From Dehalococcoidia bacterium (lineage in GTDB: Bacteria; Chloroflexota; Dehalococcoidia; DSTF01; WHTK01): a stretch of DNA of 64,000 nucleotides. The stretch is from positions 1 through 64,000 of the forward strand of contig WHTK01000004.1 in NCBI GenBank assembly GCA_009377745.1, given 5' to 3'. Below are positions 43,287-53,367 of this stretch, in pieces; position 1 is the first letter of the stretch, and every line of letters begins with the position of its first letter. The notes under the pieces were generated by a model, which had not been told where the DNA came from, searched no databases, and saw only the letters and a list, made by a program, of their open reading frames with translations. Made by a program: the position numbers and the translations under genes.

Positions 43287-43315
43287 TTTATTGTACAGAA
43301 CATTCGTTCTATACT
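43287..43315 (+). promoter_or_regulatory. Promoter of the phage-like cassette
   Basis: TATACT at 43310-43315 with a weak -35 (TTTATT, 43287-43292) at 17-nt spacing; TTATTG at 16 nt is an alternative. The SOS-box palindrome fills the spacer and touches the -10, an ideal repressing position. Confidence 0.6.
43297..43310. promoter_or_regulatory. LexA (SOS) box in the cassette promoter
   Basis: AGAAC-ATTC-GTTCT is a perfect palindrome containing GAAC-N4-GTTC, the core of the Gram-positive-type LexA box. Symmetry extends imperfectly to about 18 bp. It sits between -35 and -10, so LexA binding would block transcription until DNA damage. Confidence 0.75.
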
Positions 43316-43354
43316 CCTGCATGTCGGACCGAGATTGCGAGAGCTGAGGTGGAT

Positions 43355-43666
43355 GTGCAGTGGTTGGATTTGTTGGTCTCGATAGAGGCGGGCGGCGATT
43401 TCATCCTGGCGTCGCTGAACTGCCTGTACTTCTTGAAGTATGCCGCGGCCACGCGGTCGCCGTCACGCAGGCTGGGGGCGGGCGCCCTGGCGTCTCTGCA
43501 GGGCAGCCTGGCGCTGGAGGCGCTGCTGTTCCTGTCGCAGGCGCCTTCGGGGGCACAGTCCTGGACGCGGGCCGTGGCGCTGGTCACGGTGCGCAGCGCG
43601 CTGCTGGCTTCGACGGCGCTGGTGAGCCTGCTGATCCGGCGTCACCTCTGGCTAACCCGGCGCTAG
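43355..43666 (+). CDS. Small membrane protein, first gene of the phage-like cassette
   Basis: About 103 residues from GTG 43355 (GAGG 6 nt upstream); the frame is open further 5' but crosses the promoter. Three hydrophobic segments (SIEAGGDFILASLNCLYFLK, GSLALEALLFLS and a final TALVSLLIRRHLW helix) suggest a polytopic membrane protein, possibly holin-like. Family not recognised. Confidence 0.6.
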   Translation: MQWLDLLVSIEAGGDFILASLNCLYFLKYAAATRSPSRRLGAGALASLQGSLALEALLFLSQAPSGAQSWTRAVALVTVRSALLASTALVSLLIRRHLWLTRR

Positions 43667-43676
43667 GCGGTGGCCG

Positions 43677-43847
43677 GTGAAGCCGTTTGCCGTCGCTGTG
43701 AAGCGGCAGCAATGGACGCTCGTCTCGCTCTACCTGTTGCTGGCAATCAGCGAGACGGCGGCGAAGCTGCCGCCGGAGTCGCTGACGGCGTTGATCGACC
43801 TGTTGGGCGGCGACGAGGCCCCGGCGAAGGGCGGGCAGGATGATTAG
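43677..43847 (+). CDS. Very small protein in the phage-like cassette
   Basis: 56 residues, GTG 43677 to TAG 43847. A basic N-terminus (VKPFAVAVKRQQ) precedes one hydrophobic helix (WTLVSLYLLLAISETAAKL) and an acidic tail. Supported by tight packing: it starts 11 nt after the previous stop and overlaps the next start by 8 nt. Single-span membrane peptide or helical accessory protein; function unknown. Confidence 0.5.
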   Translation: MKPFAVAVKRQQWTLVSLYLLLAISETAAKLPPESLTALIDLLGGDEAPAKGGQDD

Positions 43848-44223
43848 CGGTCCGTCCCTGCCCGATGAGGCCCTCATTGCCAAAGACAAACCCAGGAGCC
43901 ACGCCCGCCGTATTCGCCGGCCGGACCCGCGACGGTTCTACGGCGAGGCGTTGAGTAAAGCCGAACGCTTGGACCTGCCGGCGGCGCTAAAGATCGAGGG
44001 CATGGATGAGGAGATCGCCGTGCTGCGGCTAAGGCTGCGCACGGCGATCGAAGAGCGGCCGGACGACATCGAGCTGATGTTCAGGGGCATTGGCCTGATC
44101 GTCAGGACGGTGGCGGCGCGCTATCGCCTCTCCAAGCAGGCTGAACGCGACCTGGACTCTAGCCTGGCCGGCGTTGTCCGGACCCTGGGCGACCTGTTGC
44201 CGGGAGGGCTCATCGATGAGTGA
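43840..44223 (+). CDS. Small helical protein upstream of terminase (possible small-terminase role)
   Basis: 127 residues, ATG 43840. Basic N-terminal third (DKPRSHARRIRRPDPRRFYG), then helices IEGMDEEIAVLRLRLRTAIE and LMFRGIGLIVRTVAARYRLS. No membrane segment. Position, size and helical character fit a terminase small subunit or DNA-recognition factor, but I see no confident HTH. It overlaps its neighbours on both sides (8 nt each). Confidence 0.6.
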   Translation: MISGPSLPDEALIAKDKPRSHARRIRRPDPRRFYGEALSKAERLDLPAALKIEGMDEEIAVLRLRLRTAIEERPDDIELMFRGIGLIVRTVAARYRLSKQAERDLDSSLAGVVRTLGDLLPGGLIDE

Positions 44224-44431
44224 GAGGTCATCGGCGTTGGAGGCTGAGATCGGCCGCGTTGTGCAGCGCACCCGGCGGATAGGCGCGGAGGCGGCCTTTC
44301 GCGCCGCCATCGAGGAGCGGCTACGCGGCCTGGAATCAGAGATGAGCGAGGTGAAGTCGCGGCTGAACGGGCTGCTGTTCTTCATCGCCAGCACGGTCAT
44401 CGCGCAGGTCGTACTGAGGATCTGGGCGTGA
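44216..44431 (+). CDS. Coiled-coil plus membrane-anchor protein, XhlA-like
   Basis: 71 residues from ATG 44216 with GGGAGGG upstream. A charged amphipathic coil (AAIEERLRGLESEMSEVKSR) is followed by one C-terminal membrane helix (LLFFIASTVIAQVVLRIW). This is the layout of XhlA-type phage lysis accessory proteins. Overlaps terminase by 4 nt. The lysis role is inferred from layout only. Confidence 0.65.
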   Translation: MSERSSALEAEIGRVVQRTRRIGAEAAFRAAIEERLRGLESEMSEVKSRLNGLLFFIASTVIAQVVLRIWA

Positions 44432-45930
44432 TGCTTGCTAAAGGTGCGAGGGGCGCCTCCAACGCGGTGTCCACCGCCCAGATTGATCTGAAGGTGGCGT
44501 CCATCCCCAGCCGCCCGGTCCCCACATCACAGGGCCCGGCGTCCGGAAGGCCCGGGAAGACGGCAGCGGGTCTCAAATCGCCGTTGAGGCCTTATCAGCG
44601 CCAGGCGGCGCGGGCCATTGTCGATAGCGTGCTGCGGCGCAAGGGGCTGTCGTTCTCGGTGGAGATCGCGCGGCAGGGCGGCAAGAACGAGCTTTCGGCC
44701 CGCATCGAGCTGCTGCTGCTGGCGACGCATCTCCATCGAGACATCACCTCGATCAAGGCGGCGCCGACGCTGCGGCCCCAGGCGCTAATCAGCCTGCAAC
44801 GGCTCTGGGAGCGGGTGCAGGACGCCGGTCTCGACGCCTGGGCAACGAAGGAGAACGGCAACGCTGTCCGGCTGGGGCGCGCGCGGCAGCTCTTCCTCTC
44901 GGCGGAGCCCAACAGCAACGTCGTCGGCCACACCGCAGGTCTCCTTCTGGAGATCGATGAAGCCCAGGACGTGGACACGGACAAGTTCGACAAGGAATTC
45001 CGGCCGATGGCTGCCAGCACAGGCGCCACCACCGTCTTCTATGGCACGGCCTGGGACGACGCCAACCTGCTGGAGCGCGCCAAGCAAACGCACCTGGAGC
45101 AGGAACGCCGCGACGGCATCCGGCGTCACTTCGAGTACGACTGGCAGGTGGTGGCGGCGAGCAACCCGGATTACGGACGCTACGTCCTCGGCGAGCGCGA
45201 GCGGCTGGGCGCCGAGCACCCGCTATTCCTCACGCAGTACAGCCTGCGGACGCTGCCGGGGGCGGGCAGGCTGCTGGGCCCGGCTCAGCTATCGCTGCTG
45301 CGCGGGTCGCATGCGGCCCTGGCTGGGCCGGTGGCGGGCGAAACCTACGTGGCGGGGCTGGACCTCGCGGGCGAGGCGTCGCGGCCGGGGAGCGAGGCCG
45401 GGCACGACGCCACGGTGCTGACCATCGGCCGGGTGCGCGAGCCGGAAGCCGGTAGCCCCCTGGCCGAGAGCAGCGTCGAGGTGGTGCGGCACTACGCCTG
45501 GACCGGCGTGGCGCACACGGAGATATACGGCGCCCTCGTGTCGCTGCTGCGTGACACGTGGCGGGTGCAGCGTCTCTGCGTCGATGCGACCGGTATCGGT
45601 GAGCCGGTTGCCGCCTTCCTGACCAAGGGGCTGGGCGGCGGGCGTGTCGAGGCCGTGAAGCTCAGCTCCGAGACCAAGTCGAGTTTGGGCTTCGAGCTGC
45701 TGTCAGCCGTTAACGGCGGCCGGCTAAGGCTTTACGAGGCCGTGTCAGCCGAGTGCTGGCGGCAGCTGGAGCGCTGTCGCGCCGTCTACCGGCCGAACCG
45801 GACGCTGAGCTACTTCGTCGAGGCGCGCGACGGCCACGACGACTACGTGATCAGCCTGGCGCTGGCGTGGGCCGCCGCGTCGGGAGCGGGGCCGCGACGC
45901 GCCCGCGGCCGGAGCGATGGATTGATCTGA
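44428..45930 (+). CDS. Phage terminase large subunit (DNA-packaging ATPase/nuclease)
   Basis: 500 residues. ATPase domain: SPLRPYQRQAARAIVDSVLR, the Walker-A-like VEIARQGGKNELSARIE, Walker B LLLEIDEAQDV (about residues 170-180) and the coupling-motif region TTVFYGTAWDD. RNase-H-like nuclease domain: first Asp in YVAGLDLAGE, second in CVDATGIGEP and third in DGHDDYVISLALAWA. All catalytic positions look present, so the protein is probably functional. GTG 44428 (GAGGA 7 nt upstream) or ATG 44431 can start it. Residues about 19-36 are encoded by a repeat (44481-44533) that recurs at the gene's end. Confidence 0.9.
   Translation: MMLAKGARGASNAVSTAQIDLKVASIPSRPVPTSQGPASGRPGKTAAGLKSPLRPYQRQAARAIVDSVLRRKGLSFSVEIARQGGKNELSARIELLLLATHLHRDITSIKAAPTLRPQALISLQRLWERVQDAGLDAWATKENGNAVRLGRARQLFLSAEPNSNVVGHTAGLLLEIDEAQDVDTDKFDKEFRPMAASTGATTVFYGTAWDDANLLERAKQTHLEQERRDGIRRHFEYDWQVVAASNPDYGRYVLGERERLGAEHPLFLTQYSLRTLPGAGRLLGPAQLSLLRGSHAALAGPVAGETYVAGLDLAGEASRPGSEAGHDATVLTIGRVREPEAGSPLAESSVEVVRHYAWTGVAHTEIYGALVSLLRDTWRVQRLCVDATGIGEPVAAFLTKGLGGGRVEAVKLSSETKSSLGFELLSAVNGGRLRLYEAVSAECWRQLERCRAVYRPNRTLSYFVEARDGHDDYVISLALAWAAASGAGPRRARGRSDGLI
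44481..44533 (+). repeat. Cassette repeat, copy 1 (inside the terminase 5' end)
   Basis: About 53 nt beginning GATTGATCTGAAGGTGGCGT and ending CCCCACATCACAGG. Aligns well with copy 2 at 45920-45973 and with the inverted copy at 46362-46411. Here it is translated as part of the terminase N-terminus. Confidence 0.7.
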
Positions 45931-45973
45931 AGGGTGGTGTCCACCCCATGCCCTGCAACCCCCACACCACAGG
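45920..45973 (+). repeat. Cassette repeat, copy 2 (over the terminase stop)
   Basis: 54 nt from GATTGATCTGAAGGGTGGTG to CCCCCACACCACAGG. The terminase TGA (45928-45930) lies inside it. GTGGTGT and ACACCAC can form a 7-bp stem, and GGGTGG-TGT-CCACCC a competing smaller hairpin. Confidence 0.75.
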
Positions 45974-46008
45974 ATGGGCAGTGACCCTCAACGAGAGGAG
46001 GAAATGAC

Positions 46009-46338
46009 ATGGTAGCCCTACAAAACAGACCGCCTTCCTATTTGCGGCAACCCGTCATCGGAGACGAGGAGCTGCCGCGGCCGGCCCGGCGAGACGCGCT
46101 GCCGGAGCACACCCATTACGCCGATACCGGCTGTGACCTGCACCCGAGCTGCCTGACTTGCCCGCTGGTGCGCTGCCGCTACGACGAGCCCGGTGGCGCC
46201 CGCCGCCTCCTGAGTGAGGACCGCGACCGGACGATGCTGGAGCTACAGCGATCGCACGTGCCGATCAACTCGATTGCGGCCCGGTTTGGCATCTCACGCC
46301 GCACCGTCTTCCGGGTGCTGGCGCGGCACCGAAGTTAG
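46009..46338 (+). CDS. Cys-cluster helix-turn-helix protein of the phage-like cassette
   Basis: 109 residues; AGGAGG upstream of ATG 46009. The middle carries TGCDLHPSCLTCPLVRCRYD, four cysteines that could bind zinc or an Fe-S cluster. The C-terminus is a helix-turn-helix (SHVPINSIAARFGISRRTVF, then RVLARHR). Probably a DNA-binding regulator or recognition factor. It lies between terminase and portal, where phages often encode small DNA-binding proteins. Confidence 0.75.
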   Translation: MVALQNRPPSYLRQPVIGDEELPRPARRDALPEHTHYADTGCDLHPSCLTCPLVRCRYDEPGGARRLLSEDRDRTMLELQRSHVPINSIAARFGISRRTVFRVLARHRS

Positions 46339-46361
46339 GCAGGCCGATTACGAGTAGGGTT

Positions 46362-46411
46362 CCTGTGGTGTGGGTGTGGGGACGGCTGGAGGGAGGACAC
46401 CACTTTCAGAT
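46362..46411 (-). repeat. Cassette repeat, copy 3 (inverted, before the portal gene)
   Basis: The reverse complement runs ATCTGAAAGTGGTGTCC through CCCACACCACAGG, matching copies 1 and 2. It ends 12 nt before the portal start and brings GTGGTGT/ACACCAC arms able to form a hairpin. Confidence 0.7.
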
Positions 46412-46423
46412 GAGGAGGAGCAG

Positions 46424-47803
46424 ATGACCAGTCCGCCCGCTACCGCCAACCAGAGCGTCATAGAGCAGCTGACGCGCCTCGATAGCCAGCGTCTGCGCGC
46501 CTACCGCGAGAACCTGGCGTTCTATCGCGGGCAGCAATGGCCGGCCCAGGCGCGCCGCCGGGAGCGGCGGCTGGTCTTCAACTACGCCAGGGCGATGATC
46601 GACAAGACAGCGTCTTACCTGACGGCGGGCATGAGCTGCGTCGTGGATGAGGAAGACGGGACGCAAGAAGCGCGGGAGCGGGCTCGGCAGGCCGAGAAGG
46701 CCCTGCGCCAGGTCTATGAGGCCAACAACCTGGCCCAGCTCGACTTCGATGCCGAGATCGACGCCTCGATCCTGGGCGATGGCGCCTTCAAGGTGACCTG
46801 GGACCCGGACGAACGCCGGATACGAGTCTCTTCGCCGGACGTGCAGGGGCTATTCGCCTGGTGGCTGGGCGACGACGTGACGCGGCTCTGGCGGGTCGCC
46901 AGCCGCTACTACCTCTCGGACGAGGAGGCCACGCTGCTCTACGGCGAGGCGGTCCCGCGGCGGACGCAGCGTCATGGCGGTCGCGCCGGCGTCCCGGTGG
47001 CCAAGCAGCATAGCGTGGTCGAGGTCTGGACGCGGGAAGAGTTCGAGCTCTGGTTTGATGGCGGCCTACTTGATGCCAAGCCGAACCCCTACGGCTTCAT
47101 CCCGTTCGTGATCTTCGCCAACCTGCGCGAGCCGCATCAGTTCTGGGGCGTCAGCGATATCGAGGCCGTGCGCGAGCCGGTGCGGGAGCTGAACCGGGCG
47201 CTCTCGCAGCTCTCGATGATCCTGGAGCTGTCCGGCAATCCCGTCGCGGTTCTGGAGAACGTGACGGAGGCGCAGGACATCGCCGTGGCGCCGGGCGCGG
47301 TCTGGGAGCTACCGGAGCGGGCGCGCGCCTACTTGCTGGACCTGCTGCAGGGTGGCGGCGTGGGCCTGCACGGCGACTACGTGCAGATGATCTACCGGAC
47401 GCTGCATGACCTGGGCGAGTCGCCGCGTACCGCGTTTGGCGAGAGCCGCGGGCTGTCCGGAGTTGCGCTCAACATCGAGCTGGACCCGCTACTGAAGAAG
47501 ATCCAGCGCAAGCGCCTGCTGCGCGACGCGGCGATCAGGCGCCGCAACGAGCTGGTCCTGCGGCTACTGGAGCAGTACACCGGCGTGAGCTACGCGCCTT
47601 ACCGCTCGCGCGTAGTCTGGGGGCCGCTGTTGCCGCCGGACCGCAGCCGGCTGGTCGGCGATGAGACGCGGCTGGTGCAGGCCGGCATCCACTCGCGTCG
47701 CCGGGCTGCCAACGAGCTGGGCGTGGCCGACCCGGAGACCGAGTTTGAGCGCTGGCGCGAGGAGCGGGCGCTGCTGGTTGCTGAGGAGGAAGACGATGCT
47801 TGA
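46424..47803 (+). CDS. Phage portal protein (SPP1 gp6-like)
   Basis: 459 residues from ATG 46424 with AGGAGG upstream. YRENLAFYRGQQWPAQARRR and LVFNYARAMIDKTASYLTAG near the N-terminus, then GDGAFKVTWDPDERRIRVSS and a PNPYGFIPFVIFANLREPHQ-type stem region, and a long C-terminal helical part (LLKKIQRKRLLRDAAIRRRN). These are typical of dodecameric portals that seat the terminase on a procapsid. No capsid gene follows. Overlaps the next gene by 8 nt. Confidence 0.87.
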   Translation: MTSPPATANQSVIEQLTRLDSQRLRAYRENLAFYRGQQWPAQARRRERRLVFNYARAMIDKTASYLTAGMSCVVDEEDGTQEARERARQAEKALRQVYEANNLAQLDFDAEIDASILGDGAFKVTWDPDERRIRVSSPDVQGLFAWWLGDDVTRLWRVASRYYLSDEEATLLYGEAVPRRTQRHGGRAGVPVAKQHSVVEVWTREEFELWFDGGLLDAKPNPYGFIPFVIFANLREPHQFWGVSDIEAVREPVRELNRALSQLSMILELSGNPVAVLENVTEAQDIAVAPGAVWELPERARAYLLDLLQGGGVGLHGDYVQMIYRTLHDLGESPRTAFGESRGLSGVALNIELDPLLKKIQRKRLLRDAAIRRRNELVLRLLEQYTGVSYAPYRSRVVWGPLLPPDRSRLVGDETRLVQAGIHSRRRAANELGVADPETEFERWREERALLVAEEEDDA

Positions 47804-48137
47804 TGACACCGCGACGGCGATCGTATTGCTGCTGTTCCTCTCGGCGGCGGTAGAGCGCGGCGTGGAGGTCGTGCTCTCCGCGCTGGATGGCTGGCAGGCC
47901 CCGGCGCAGCGCCGCCTCCTGGCCGTCGGGCTCTCGGCCGCCTTGAGTGCGGCGATTGCTTTCGGATTGGAGCTCGACCTGATCGGTCCGCTGCTGAGCG
48001 AGGAAGCGCTGACTCTGACTCAGGCCCGAGCCGCCACGGCAATTGCGCTGGCCGGCGGCAGCGGCCCGGCCCACGAGCTGATCCGGCTGATCGAAGAGGC
48101 GAAGGCGCGCTTGAAGGCCGGATCGTCAGGAGCTTAG
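47796..48137 (+). CDS. Small membrane protein closing the cassette (holin-like candidate)
   Basis: 113 residues from ATG 47796, GAGGAGG upstream. Two membrane segments (AIVLLLFLSAAVERGVEVVL and LLAVGLSAALSAAIAFGLEL), then a charged C-terminal helix (ELIRLIEEAKARLKAG). Topology fits a class II holin or another phage membrane protein. The stop overlaps the convergent acyl-CoA synthetase stop by 4 nt, leaving no room for an attachment site at this end. Confidence 0.65.
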   Translation: MLDDTATAIVLLLFLSAAVERGVEVVLSALDGWQAPAQRRLLAVGLSAALSAAIAFGLELDLIGPLLSEEALTLTQARAATAIALAGGSGPAHELIRLIEEAKARLKAGSSGA

Positions 48138-50568: not shown

Positions 50569-53367
50569 TCAACTGTCACCGTGGGGCACCGTCAGAATGC
50601 CGCGCAGGTCATTCTTGTGGCTGAGGATATCTGCCCAGGGGTCGCCGTGGCCGCGGAGCAGGTCCGGGATCGTTAGCAGGTTGTAGTCAGTAGGGTCCAG
50701 ACGTGAAAGCTCCGGCCAGGCGACCGGCATCGAGACACCGGCCCAGCCCGTTGGCCGCAGCGAGTACTGGGCCGCGAGGGTCTTGCCGCGGGTGTTCTGG
50801 TTGTGGTCGAAGAAGACCTTGCCGCGGCGCTTGGAGGTGTCCCAGTCCATCGTCAGGTCCTTGGGGTGCTGTTGTAGCAGGAAATGCCCGATTGTCGCGG
50901 TAAAGGCGCGGATGTGGTCGTAGTCGAAGTGGCGCAGGACGGGGACGTAGATGTGGAGCCCCGTCTTGCCGGACGTCTTGACGAAGGACGAGAGCTTGAG
51001 GCCATCCAGCAGGTCCTTGAGGCTGAGGGCAATCTCGACGGTCTTTTGCCAGCCGCGCTTGTTGTACTCCGGCTCTTCGCCCTTGCCCTCCTGGCCGGAA
51101 TAGATGTAGGGGTCAAGGTCAAAGATCATGTAGTCGGGGTAGCTAAGCGCGGAGGCATCTATGGCGGCCTCGGAGCCGGAGAAGGTCATCGTCCGGCCGT
51201 GGGCGTCCGGCTCCGGGTCGATGCGCGACATCCAGGCGTGTATTTCCAGGTCGGCGATCTGGGCCAGCCAGACCAGGGTCGGCAGGTTGTTGCAGAGGAT
51301 GTACTCGCCGTCCTCCTTGTTGCTTTCCGACCAAAGATTTACGGTCTCGACGAAGGATGGGATCGGCTGCTCGTAGTGCTTCTGGTAGAAGGGCTTGGCC
51401 GTGACACCGTTGGGGTAGCGGGTCAGGGTGAGAGGACGGTCCTTGAGGTGAGGCAGGATGTAGGGCGCGACGCTGGCGTAGTAGCGGATGAGGTCGCGCT
51501 TGAGCAGCGGCGGCCGGTCCTTGTAGGCGGGCCAGAACTCCTTGTCCAGGTTGGTGACCTTGATCGACTCGCCGGCGATGTCCAGGGGAAAGGTCTGCTT
51601 CGGGTTCTCCAGCTGGCGCAGGACGAAAGCTACGTCGGAATCGAGGGGGCTGGTTGTGCCTACGGGGCGTAGGGGTGCGGCATGCTGCGCCCCTACGCCT
51701 TCGTGATCCACGGTGGCATCCTCGATAGGTCCAGCTGTCACTTCCGCCGCCGGGCTGGCTTGCTCGCGGCGCACCTGTCTGGGGTCGATGTCGTTGCGCA
51801 GGCCGAGGAAGACGGGCGCGCGCAGGTGGCCGTCCTTGGTCCACTCCGCGAACTTGACCTGCGCGACCAGCTCCGGCTTCACCCAGGCCGGCTTGCCCTC
51901 AATCTTCTTCTCGGCGAAGGGCGGCTCGTCAGTCTCCAGTGACATGAGCTTCTCAAGGACGACGCCGAGGGAGCGATCATCGAAGCCGGAACCGACGTTG
52001 CCGGTGTGGTGGAGGAGGCCGGCGTCGTCGTAGTAGCCGATGGCCAGGGCGCCGAAGCTCTTGGCGCGCGACCCTTCGCCCCTGGTATAGCCGCCGACCA
52101 CGAACTCCTGCTCCTGCACCGCTTTGACCTTGACCCAGGCGCGGCTGCGCGCCCCGGGCTCGTAGCGGGAGTCGGCGCGCTTGCCGACGACGCCCTCGAA
52201 GCCAATGCGCCTCGCCGCCGCCTCGACCTCGCGGCCCTGCTCCTCAATGTGGCTGACGATGCGGACATTGTCGCGCTGGACGATTCGGGTCTGGAGCAGG
52301 TTCTTGCGATCGCGGATCGGGACGGCTTTGAGGTCATAGCCGTCGAGGTAGAGAAGGTCGAAGAGGAAGTAGGCGACCGGTATTTCCGCCTCGACGCGGG
52401 CGATGTCGGCCGGGCGGGTGAGATTGATCCGGGGCTGCAAGAGCTGGAATCGCGGCACGCCCTCCTCATCCAGGGCGCAGATCTCGCCGTCGAGGACGCA
52501 GTTTGCCGGCGCTTGAGCCTTGAGCGCCCCGGCCAGCGCCGGGTAGGCCTTCGTGACATCGACGCCGCGGCGGCTGCGCAGCTCGACCTTGCCGTCGCGG
52601 ATGAAGGTGAGGGTGCGGATGCCGTCCAGCTTTGGCTCCCAGAGCCAGGCCGTGTTGTCGAAGGCTTTGTCGACCAGCGTGGCCAGCATCGGCTGCAGGC
52701 GCCTCGGCTCCGGGAAGGGCGTTTGGCGGGCGTTGGGCAGCGCTTCCAAACTGGCAGCGCCGGGGTTGGGCAGGCGGCCCTCCTTTAGGTCCTTGATGCT
52801 GAGGCCGGAGCGGACGGATCGGTCCTCTTCGAGGATGTCGCGCTCGGCGGCGTACTCGTCACGGTGTTTGATCAGCAGCCAGCTATCGGCCGAGTAGCGC
52901 GTCTTGACCAGGGCGAAGGAACCACGCAGCTTGTGGCCCTGCAGCGTGAAGGAGAGCTTGCCGGCGGCGATGCCCTCCAGCATGCGGTGGCTGCCCTCCT
53001 CCTTGTCGTCCCAGGACGTGGCGCCGCCTTCGTCCGGGGTGTAGATGCCCTCGTCCCAGACGATGACCTGGCCGCCGCCGTACTCGCCCTTGGGGATCAC
53101 GCCCTCGAAGGTGCGGTACTCGTAGGGGTGATCCTCCACCATAACGGCCATGCGCTTCTCTTTAGGGTCGATGGATGGGCCCTTGGGCAAGGGCCAGGAC
53201 TTGAGCACGCCGTCAACTTCGAGGCGGAAGTCCCAGTGCATGCGCGTCGCGGCGTGCTGCTGGACAACGAAGACCAGGTTGCGCGCGGAGGCGTCCGGGT
53301 CGCCGGGGGGCGGCTCCGGCGTCTTGCTGAAGTCGCGCTTCTTGCGGTAAGCATCGAGCTCTGGCAT
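50569..53367 (-). CDS. ligD: ATP-dependent DNA ligase D (LigD: phosphoesterase-ligase-polymerase)
   Basis: 932 residues in the order PE-LIG-POL. The 3'-phosphoesterase domain is about residues 25-165 (FVVQQHAATRMHWDFRLEVD); the ligase domain 220-535 with catalytic Lys246 in EPKLDGIRTL and EGVVGKRADSRYEPG; the primase-like polymerase 595-925 with MIFDLDP metal ligands and KTSGKTGLHIYVPV. Acts with Ku in bacterial non-homologous end joining; no Ku gene is in the window. Residues about 554-571, between ligase and polymerase, are encoded by a hairpin repeat (51666-51699). Confidence 0.95.
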   Translation of the reverse strand: MPELDAYRKKRDFSKTPEPPPGDPDASARNLVFVVQQHAATRMHWDFRLEVDGVLKSWPLPKGPSIDPKEKRMAVMVEDHPYEYRTFEGVIPKGEYGGGQVIVWDEGIYTPDEGGATSWDDKEEGSHRMLEGIAAGKLSFTLQGHKLRGSFALVKTRYSADSWLLIKHRDEYAAERDILEEDRSVRSGLSIKDLKEGRLPNPGAASLEALPNARQTPFPEPRRLQPMLATLVDKAFDNTAWLWEPKLDGIRTLTFIRDGKVELRSRRGVDVTKAYPALAGALKAQAPANCVLDGEICALDEEGVPRFQLLQPRINLTRPADIARVEAEIPVAYFLFDLLYLDGYDLKAVPIRDRKNLLQTRIVQRDNVRIVSHIEEQGREVEAAARRIGFEGVVGKRADSRYEPGARSRAWVKVKAVQEQEFVVGGYTRGEGSRAKSFGALAIGYYDDAGLLHHTGNVGSGFDDRSLGVVLEKLMSLETDEPPFAEKKIEGKPAWVKPELVAQVKFAEWTKDGHLRAPVFLGLRNDIDPRQVRREQASPAAEVTAGPIEDATVDHEGVGAQHAAPLRPVGTTSPLDSDVAFVLRQLENPKQTFPLDIAGESIKVTNLDKEFWPAYKDRPPLLKRDLIRYYASVAPYILPHLKDRPLTLTRYPNGVTAKPFYQKHYEQPIPSFVETVNLWSESNKEDGEYILCNNLPTLVWLAQIADLEIHAWMSRIDPEPDAHGRTMTFSGSEAAIDASALSYPDYMIFDLDPYIYSGQEGKGEEPEYNKRGWQKTVEIALSLKDLLDGLKLSSFVKTSGKTGLHIYVPVLRHFDYDHIRAFTATIGHFLLQQHPKDLTMDWDTSKRRGKVFFDHNQNTRGKTLAAQYSLRPTGWAGVSMPVAWPELSRLDPTDYNLLTIPDLLRGHGDPWADILSHKNDLRGILTVPHGDS
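51666..51699. repeat. Hairpin repeat read through inside ligD
   Basis: GGCGTAGGGGTGC (51666-51678) faces GCGCCCCTACGCC (51687-51699), 12 of 13 bp paired, with an 8-nt loop. It encodes part of the ligase-polymerase linker, where inserted sequence is tolerated. Confidence 0.7.

Follow-up and report, generated by a model that had tools for sequence, protein, structure and literature searches.

A probable gene-transfer-agent-like packaging operon with a LexA-type promoter box in the Dehalococcoidia

Introduction

What use does a bacterium have for a phage DNA-packaging apparatus that stands among host genes with neither capsid nor tail beside it? The question is raised by a cassette at 43297-48137 of the window (the whole 64,000-nt stretch of Dehalococcoidia DNA analysed here), in which a LexA-type box is followed by genes for a candidate small terminase (TerS), the large terminase (TerL), a Cys-cluster/HTH (Cys/HTH) protein, a portal protein and small, mostly membrane proteins. 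An earlier note had read it as a domesticated packaging module, for example a portion of a split gene transfer agent (GTA) or a satellite that borrows capsids. GTAs are defined by caudoviricete-derived structural proteins, endogenized often across multiple loci and mostly inherited vertically, which encapsidate mostly random host DNA, cannot fully package their own genome and deliver DNA to other cells (PMC9662315). Discovering them depends on resemblance to GTAs already known, a hard task in distant bacteria (PMC11841831); in the literature searched, no title or abstract was found to describe a GTA of Chloroflexota or Dehalococcoidia. We propose that the window probably holds the packaging operon of a domesticated, tailed-phage-derived, GTA-like element that is class-wide, vertically inherited and derepressed by DNA damage.

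Results

Layout and gene content of the cassette

Eight plus-strand ORFs, from ~43358 to 48137, make up the cassette (Table 1), flanked by host genes on the minus strand, for a polyprenyl synthetase upstream and an AMP-ligase downstream. Their description as tightly overlapping is right for most junctions only (g2/TerS 8 nt, TerS/g4 8 nt, g4/TerL 4 nt, portal/g8 8 nt), because gaps of ~80 nt flank the Cys/HTH gene on each side; the final stop does overlap the host gene by 4 nt, as first noticed. GC3 of TerL and portal is 0.87, the same as in the adjoining host genes. There is no tRNA within the window, and no integrase or att site was seen at the cassette, where the scanned flanking genes were of host type or without assignment. 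The polyprenyl-synthetase flank is common to this genome (G000) and to G001, of the same family, in a tblastx synteny comparison that is noisy beyond that flank.

Table 1. Features of the packaging cassette, in window coordinates
Feature	Position	Strand	Remarks
LexA-type operator AGAACATTCGTTCTATA	43297..43313	+	overlaps -10 element TATACT (43310-43315)
g1, small membrane protein	43358..43666	+	start codon uncertain; sequence barely conserved beyond near relatives
g2, 56-aa protein	43677..43847	+	conserved, ~20 loci
g3, candidate small terminase (TerS), 127 aa	43840..44223	+	without the N-terminal GAPxGNxNAxKHG motif of divergent members
g4, conserved	44216..44431	+	coiled coil and one C-terminal transmembrane helix
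Large terminase (TerL)	44428..45930	+	ATPase and nuclease motifs intact
Cys-cluster and HTH protein, candidate late activator	46009..46338	+	phrog_836 matched by 14/14 members
Portal protein, SPP1 Gp6-like	46424..47803	+	PF05133, phrog_64
g8, small membrane protein, final gene	47796..48137	+	4-nt overlap with host AMP-ligase gene

The terminase motifs, first reported as intact, are so by alignment: Walker A (R-Q-x-G-K-N), Walker B (D-E) and the nuclease Asp residues are invariant across 34/34 homologues. The terminase nuclease domain matches Pfam and PHROGs weakly, and the portal is identified, as the earlier note had it, by PF05133 (3.7e-22) and phrog_64 (7e-32). That note had also counted four small proteins, at least three of them membrane-spanning. 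The 127-aa g3 product is no membrane protein and belongs instead with the small terminases, as a candidate relative. PHROG terminase small subunits are matched by 4/16 members of its family, and divergent members bear a GAPxGNxNAxKHGFYS motif that is missing from the window's protein; a fold search with the TerS model returned nothing significant, and g3 is regarded here as a candidate TerS. The Cys/HTH protein is likewise a candidate late activator, every one of the 14 members scanned matching a late transcriptional activator family (phrog_836). A Pfam search with g1, g4 and g8 gave no significant match; for g4, a lysis or membrane role is possible.

The packaging promoter carries a LexA-type box

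Just upstream of the cassette lie the palindrome AGAACATTCGTTCT and a -10 element, TATACT. The extended form of AGAACATTCGTTCT at 43297-43313 is the sole perfect match in the 3.53-Mb genome, and the LexA box originally read in this promoter, AGAACATTCGTTCTATA, has counterparts in 36/44 homologous cassettes. The scoring took in AGAACN4GTTCT sites up to 1.5 kb upstream of TerL and allowed a single mismatch (14 of the 36 loci are perfect), whereas five control palindromes matched in composition occurred at 0-6/44 loci, with 0 perfect; the box is therefore not there by chance. Most of the 36 box-aligned sites have TTGAC, a 17-nt spacer holding the box, and TATTNT; the window's own promoter has a good -10 and a weak -35. 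By this anatomy, the packaging promoter appears to be a LexA-repressible sigma70 promoter. A lexA gene was found in 10/10 genomes tested; at 8/8 loci readable in the right orientation, an AGAACN4GTTY-type box precedes the lexA match by 39-62 nt, and an operator of lexA's own kind, as expected of an SOS regulon, is thus placed in the packaging promoter. The Bacillus-type box CGAACN4GTTYG has three matches in the genome, none at the cassette.

Similar sites accompany other parts of the element. The Cys/HTH gene keeps a box of its own where the modules have separated (G061, G077, G014, G156), and a box with at most one mismatch stands just upstream of the head module (capsid and scaffold genes) in 7/22 genomes, against 0-1 for controls. 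In the window's own genome, where the earlier note had proposed looking for LexA boxes at capsid genes, a site with two mismatches is present 62 nt before the scaffold gene on contig C26.

Head and tail genes elsewhere in the genome

The claim that capsid and tail are lacking is true locally at the cassette and false genome-wide. Searching G000 with the 295-aa major capsid protein (MCP) of relatives gave one match, HK97-type (phrog_212, 2.9e-69), on C26; the packaging cassette is on C60. The neighbours of the MCP gene are the scaffold gene and, divergently, genes for an adaptor, a tail protein and a spike-like protein of 70 aa; the last gene stops 30 bp short of ruvB, which has the same orientation, and the layout in G001 is similar. 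A fold search with the tail protein gave beta-propeller matches for the predicted N-terminal part, where model confidence is modest, being low for the rest. Tape-measure, protease and endolysin or lysis genes were not identified. The MCP core is intact over 293 residues, and its frame runs on for 85 codons beyond the usual end, into RHS-like sequence, which may reflect decay or an assembly join; because of this run-on, activity of the element in G000 is uncertain.

Distribution across the class

Relatives of TerL occur in 172 of the 294 class genomes, usually as one copy and in most at 43-63% identity. The matching MCP is present in 130, both proteins in 116 (Fisher p ~6e-23) and neither in 108; some genomes have extra TerL copies, some of them with stop codons. 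The gene order g2-TerS-g4-TerL-Cys/HTH-portal, which the earlier note had suggested looking for, is conserved in many families. Many relatives still have their packaging, head and tail genes in one cluster: in G251, G078, G207 and G062, scaffold candidate, MCP, adaptor and tail protein start within ~3-8 kb after the portal, and in G100 the portal is followed by scaffold and MCP, where the sequence stretch ends. The head genes of clustered relatives encode a coiled-coil scaffold candidate, the 295-aa MCP (phrog_212, 6.7e-71), an SU10-type adaptor and a ~650-aa tail protein. Capsid genes adjacent to the cassette had been named in advance as evidence against a split module; yet the clustered relatives represent a less-split state of the same element, and therefore support the split reading.

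Where both TerL and MCP could be placed (81 genomes), they share a contig in 43, and lie within 31 kb of each other in 39 of those 43; the distance is 3 kb in the single-contig genomes G061 and G152. The modules are 117 kb to ~0.8 Mb apart on the circle in four other single-contig genomes (G069, G146, G123, G200), so that the split is not merely contig fragmentation. TerL, MCP and portal occupy three separate contigs in G084. The Dehalococcoides-like G014 retains a remnant made up of the Cys/HTH gene, a truncated portal that leads straight into part of the tail gene, the spike, and TerL facing them; MCP has been deleted from it, and G050 and G098 gave no MCP match. Beyond the class, in the same phylum, lie 28 of the 55 genomes positive for the portal in a 400-genome sample; MCP, portal and TerL fall within ~8 kb at several of these other-class loci, where most operons show no LexA-type box at their head.

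Inheritance and selection

Inheritance of the element is largely vertical. For 34 genomes, the TerL tree and the rpoB tree have 16/31 splits in common (relabelled trees: mean 0.14, maximum 3), and their distances are correlated (Mantel r 0.59, reached by 0/5000 permutations), families f1, f2, f4, f36, f37 and f61 each being recovered in both trees. Some transfer has occurred, since TerL and rpoB disagree on some deep branches (G026, G014). Selection is purifying, with pairwise dN/dS of 0.10-0.32 for TerL, 0.01-0.10 for MCP and 0.17-0.35 for the portal; between G000 and G001 the values are 0.25 for the portal and 0.32 for TerL.

Discussion

Judged by its anatomy, the element would work like a GTA, three of the six defining features being recognizable from its genes: caudoviricete-derived structural proteins (the TerL, portal, MCP and adaptor families), full endogenization across loci (the cassette on C60 but the head and tail genes on C26, and distant modules in single-contig genomes) and co-diversification with the host in the TerL and rpoB comparison, deep conflicts remaining. 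Co-packaging of modules so far apart seems implausible. The reading of the cassette as part of a split GTA is strongly supported by the MCP in the same genome, with its scaffold, adaptor and tail genes, the co-occurrence of TerL and MCP, the largely vertical inheritance and the purifying selection. In the simplest model, LexA would govern the packaging operon and Cys/HTH gene, and the Cys/HTH protein, by an arrow that we infer, the head and tail modules. DNA damage would cause LexA cleavage and switch on the packaging operon together with this regulator, which could then activate head and tail modules located elsewhere, of which some also bear a LexA box of their own. Particles would assemble and be filled non-specifically with host DNA by TerS/TerL, the small membrane proteins might release them, and the packaged DNA would be delivered to kin and recombined there for repair. 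We lean, by a small measure, towards the fuller proposition that this is a class-wide Chloroflexota GTA, apparently of Dehalococcoidia, independently domesticated and SOS-wired, whose modules have repeatedly drifted apart and by which some damaged cells release packaged genome for kin repair. Several findings count against the GTA-like explanation: no tape-measure, protease or endolysin gene was identified, 108/294 genomes have neither TerL nor MCP, Dehalococcoides-like genomes retain a mere remnant, some deep TerL branches disagree with rpoB, and a box with at most one mismatch stands upstream of only 7/22 head modules.

Among known systems, compared by description, the alphaproteobacterial type I GTA (RcGTA, Rhodogtaviriformidae) offers the nearest parallels in tailed-phage-derived head, packaging and tail genes that are genome-fixed, vertically inherited and scattered, over five loci in R. 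capsulatus (PMC9662315), and in regulation by a dedicated transcription activator, GafA (PMC6363796), with LexA involvement. For the latter, one study and the work it cites (PMC6473078) give a LexA site found in silico in the GTA promoter of D. shibae and, for R. capsulatus, control by way of cckA. The present element belongs to another phylum, has an SPP1-type portal and a phrog_212 capsid, and uses a Cys-cluster HTH regulator, not GafA; the unusual point is the direct LexA-type operator in the packaging promoter, conserved through a class. The Caulobacter GTA (CcGTA) has been connected with DNA repair and survival (PMC9632790), to which the LexA-type promoter and the tail genes beside ruvB correspond here, again by description. 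Phages like SU10, YuA and Ab18 have a capsid of the same family (38% identity) and share the SU10 adaptor family, and differ in being autonomous. No close match for the element was found in 50,697 phage records, in which portal identity did not exceed 22% and nothing matched the Cys/HTH protein, and a portal scan of viral contigs gave no relative.

The absence of a local capsid speaks for a PICI-like satellite, hijacking the capsid of a helper phage. This reading was rejected once an MCP was found on C26 of the same genome, and the MCP distribution largely refutes it: matching MCP, scaffold and tail genes are the genome's own, TerL and MCP co-occur and are vertically inherited, and the cassette, with no integrase, att site or tRNA seen there, does not look like a mobile unit. 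We put its likelihood as next to negligible. If prophages had integrated repeatedly and independently, every copy would be an ordinary prophage or one in decay. Such a history would account for the phage-like relatives (Pseudomonas phages for MCP, at 38%, and a Bacillus phage for TerL, at 31%) and for extra copies, some with stop codons, and is very improbable nonetheless, given TerL/rpoB congruence, a class-wide regulatory site, host-like GC3, a tail module repeatedly near ruvB and no close phage match. Nor does the element look like a single excisable unit such as an active prophage would be, host genes flanking the cassette and head and tail lying on another contig.

The main functional rival is a killer particle of the kind of PBSX of Bacillus subtilis, an SOS-induced defective phage that packages host DNA. 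Such a domesticated particle would kill competitors without delivering DNA; a direct LexA-type promoter with DNA-packaging genes would suit it, as would the tail protein, whose predicted beta-propeller N-terminus (modest model confidence) could bind surfaces. A killing device, however, need neither keep TerS/TerL under selection nor adjoin ruvB, and PBSX is a contiguous prophage, whereas the element here is split and conserved across a class; we regard this reading as quite unlikely. A further alternative concerns G000 alone and is compatible with the GTA-like explanation for the class: that this copy is a remnant, its packaging operon intact and its head module broken, of an element that is being lost, as it is in Dehalococcoides-like genomes. 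The copy could be decaying, because of the MCP run-on and the two-mismatch box at the scaffold promoter, and the MCP deletion in G014 and the lack of an MCP match in G050 and G098 point the same way. Against this, the TerL motifs and reading frames and the MCP core are intact, and dN/dS against G001 is 0.25 for the portal and 0.32 for TerL; decay in G000 is, on balance, doubtful.

The GTA-like explanation, preferred here, suggests a previously unreported gene transfer agent. If active, it would be a vehicle of gene exchange in a mostly uncultured class, and its LexA-type operator in the packaging promoter would make the question of whether GTAs serve DNA repair a testable one. If the explanation is true, a damage-triggered DNA-sharing system would exist in a group that includes organohalide respirers. 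As a separate observation, the single-contig genomes of family f17 (1.4-2.1 Mb) have 20-53 reductive-dehalogenase matches each.

Relatives and genomic context of the split GTA-like element

Related MCP-portal-TerL clusters occur in single copy in other classes of the phylum (L181-L187 and L194; 34-56% identical), mostly without a LexA-type box, and the GTA-like element may be older than the class. A remnant in the Dehalococcoides-like genome G014 (locus L041) retains Cys/HTH, TerL, the spike and a truncated portal, after which comes only part of the tail gene; every operon has a LexA-type box, and the MCP is deleted. Additional LexA-type box matches lie elsewhere in the genomes concerned (L090-L094, L115-L133), and the genes below them could define the SOS regulon.

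In several families, including loci of G251 and G148, the tail module adjoins ruvB, at a distance of 30 bp and on the same strand in the window's own genome; a functional link to recombination is possible. The MCP frame of that genome continues for 85 codons beyond its usual end, entering an RHS/YD-repeat fragment that is itself out of frame. Close to the packaging cassette lies a complete LigD gene (NHEJ ligase-polymerase-phosphoesterase).

Coordinates of neighbouring features
Feature	Location	Position	Strand
MCP frame continuing into RHS/YD-repeat fragment	L095, contig C26	16881-18511	reverse complement
Tail module beside ruvB	L095, contig C26	8888-10224	reverse complement
LigD	window	50572-53367
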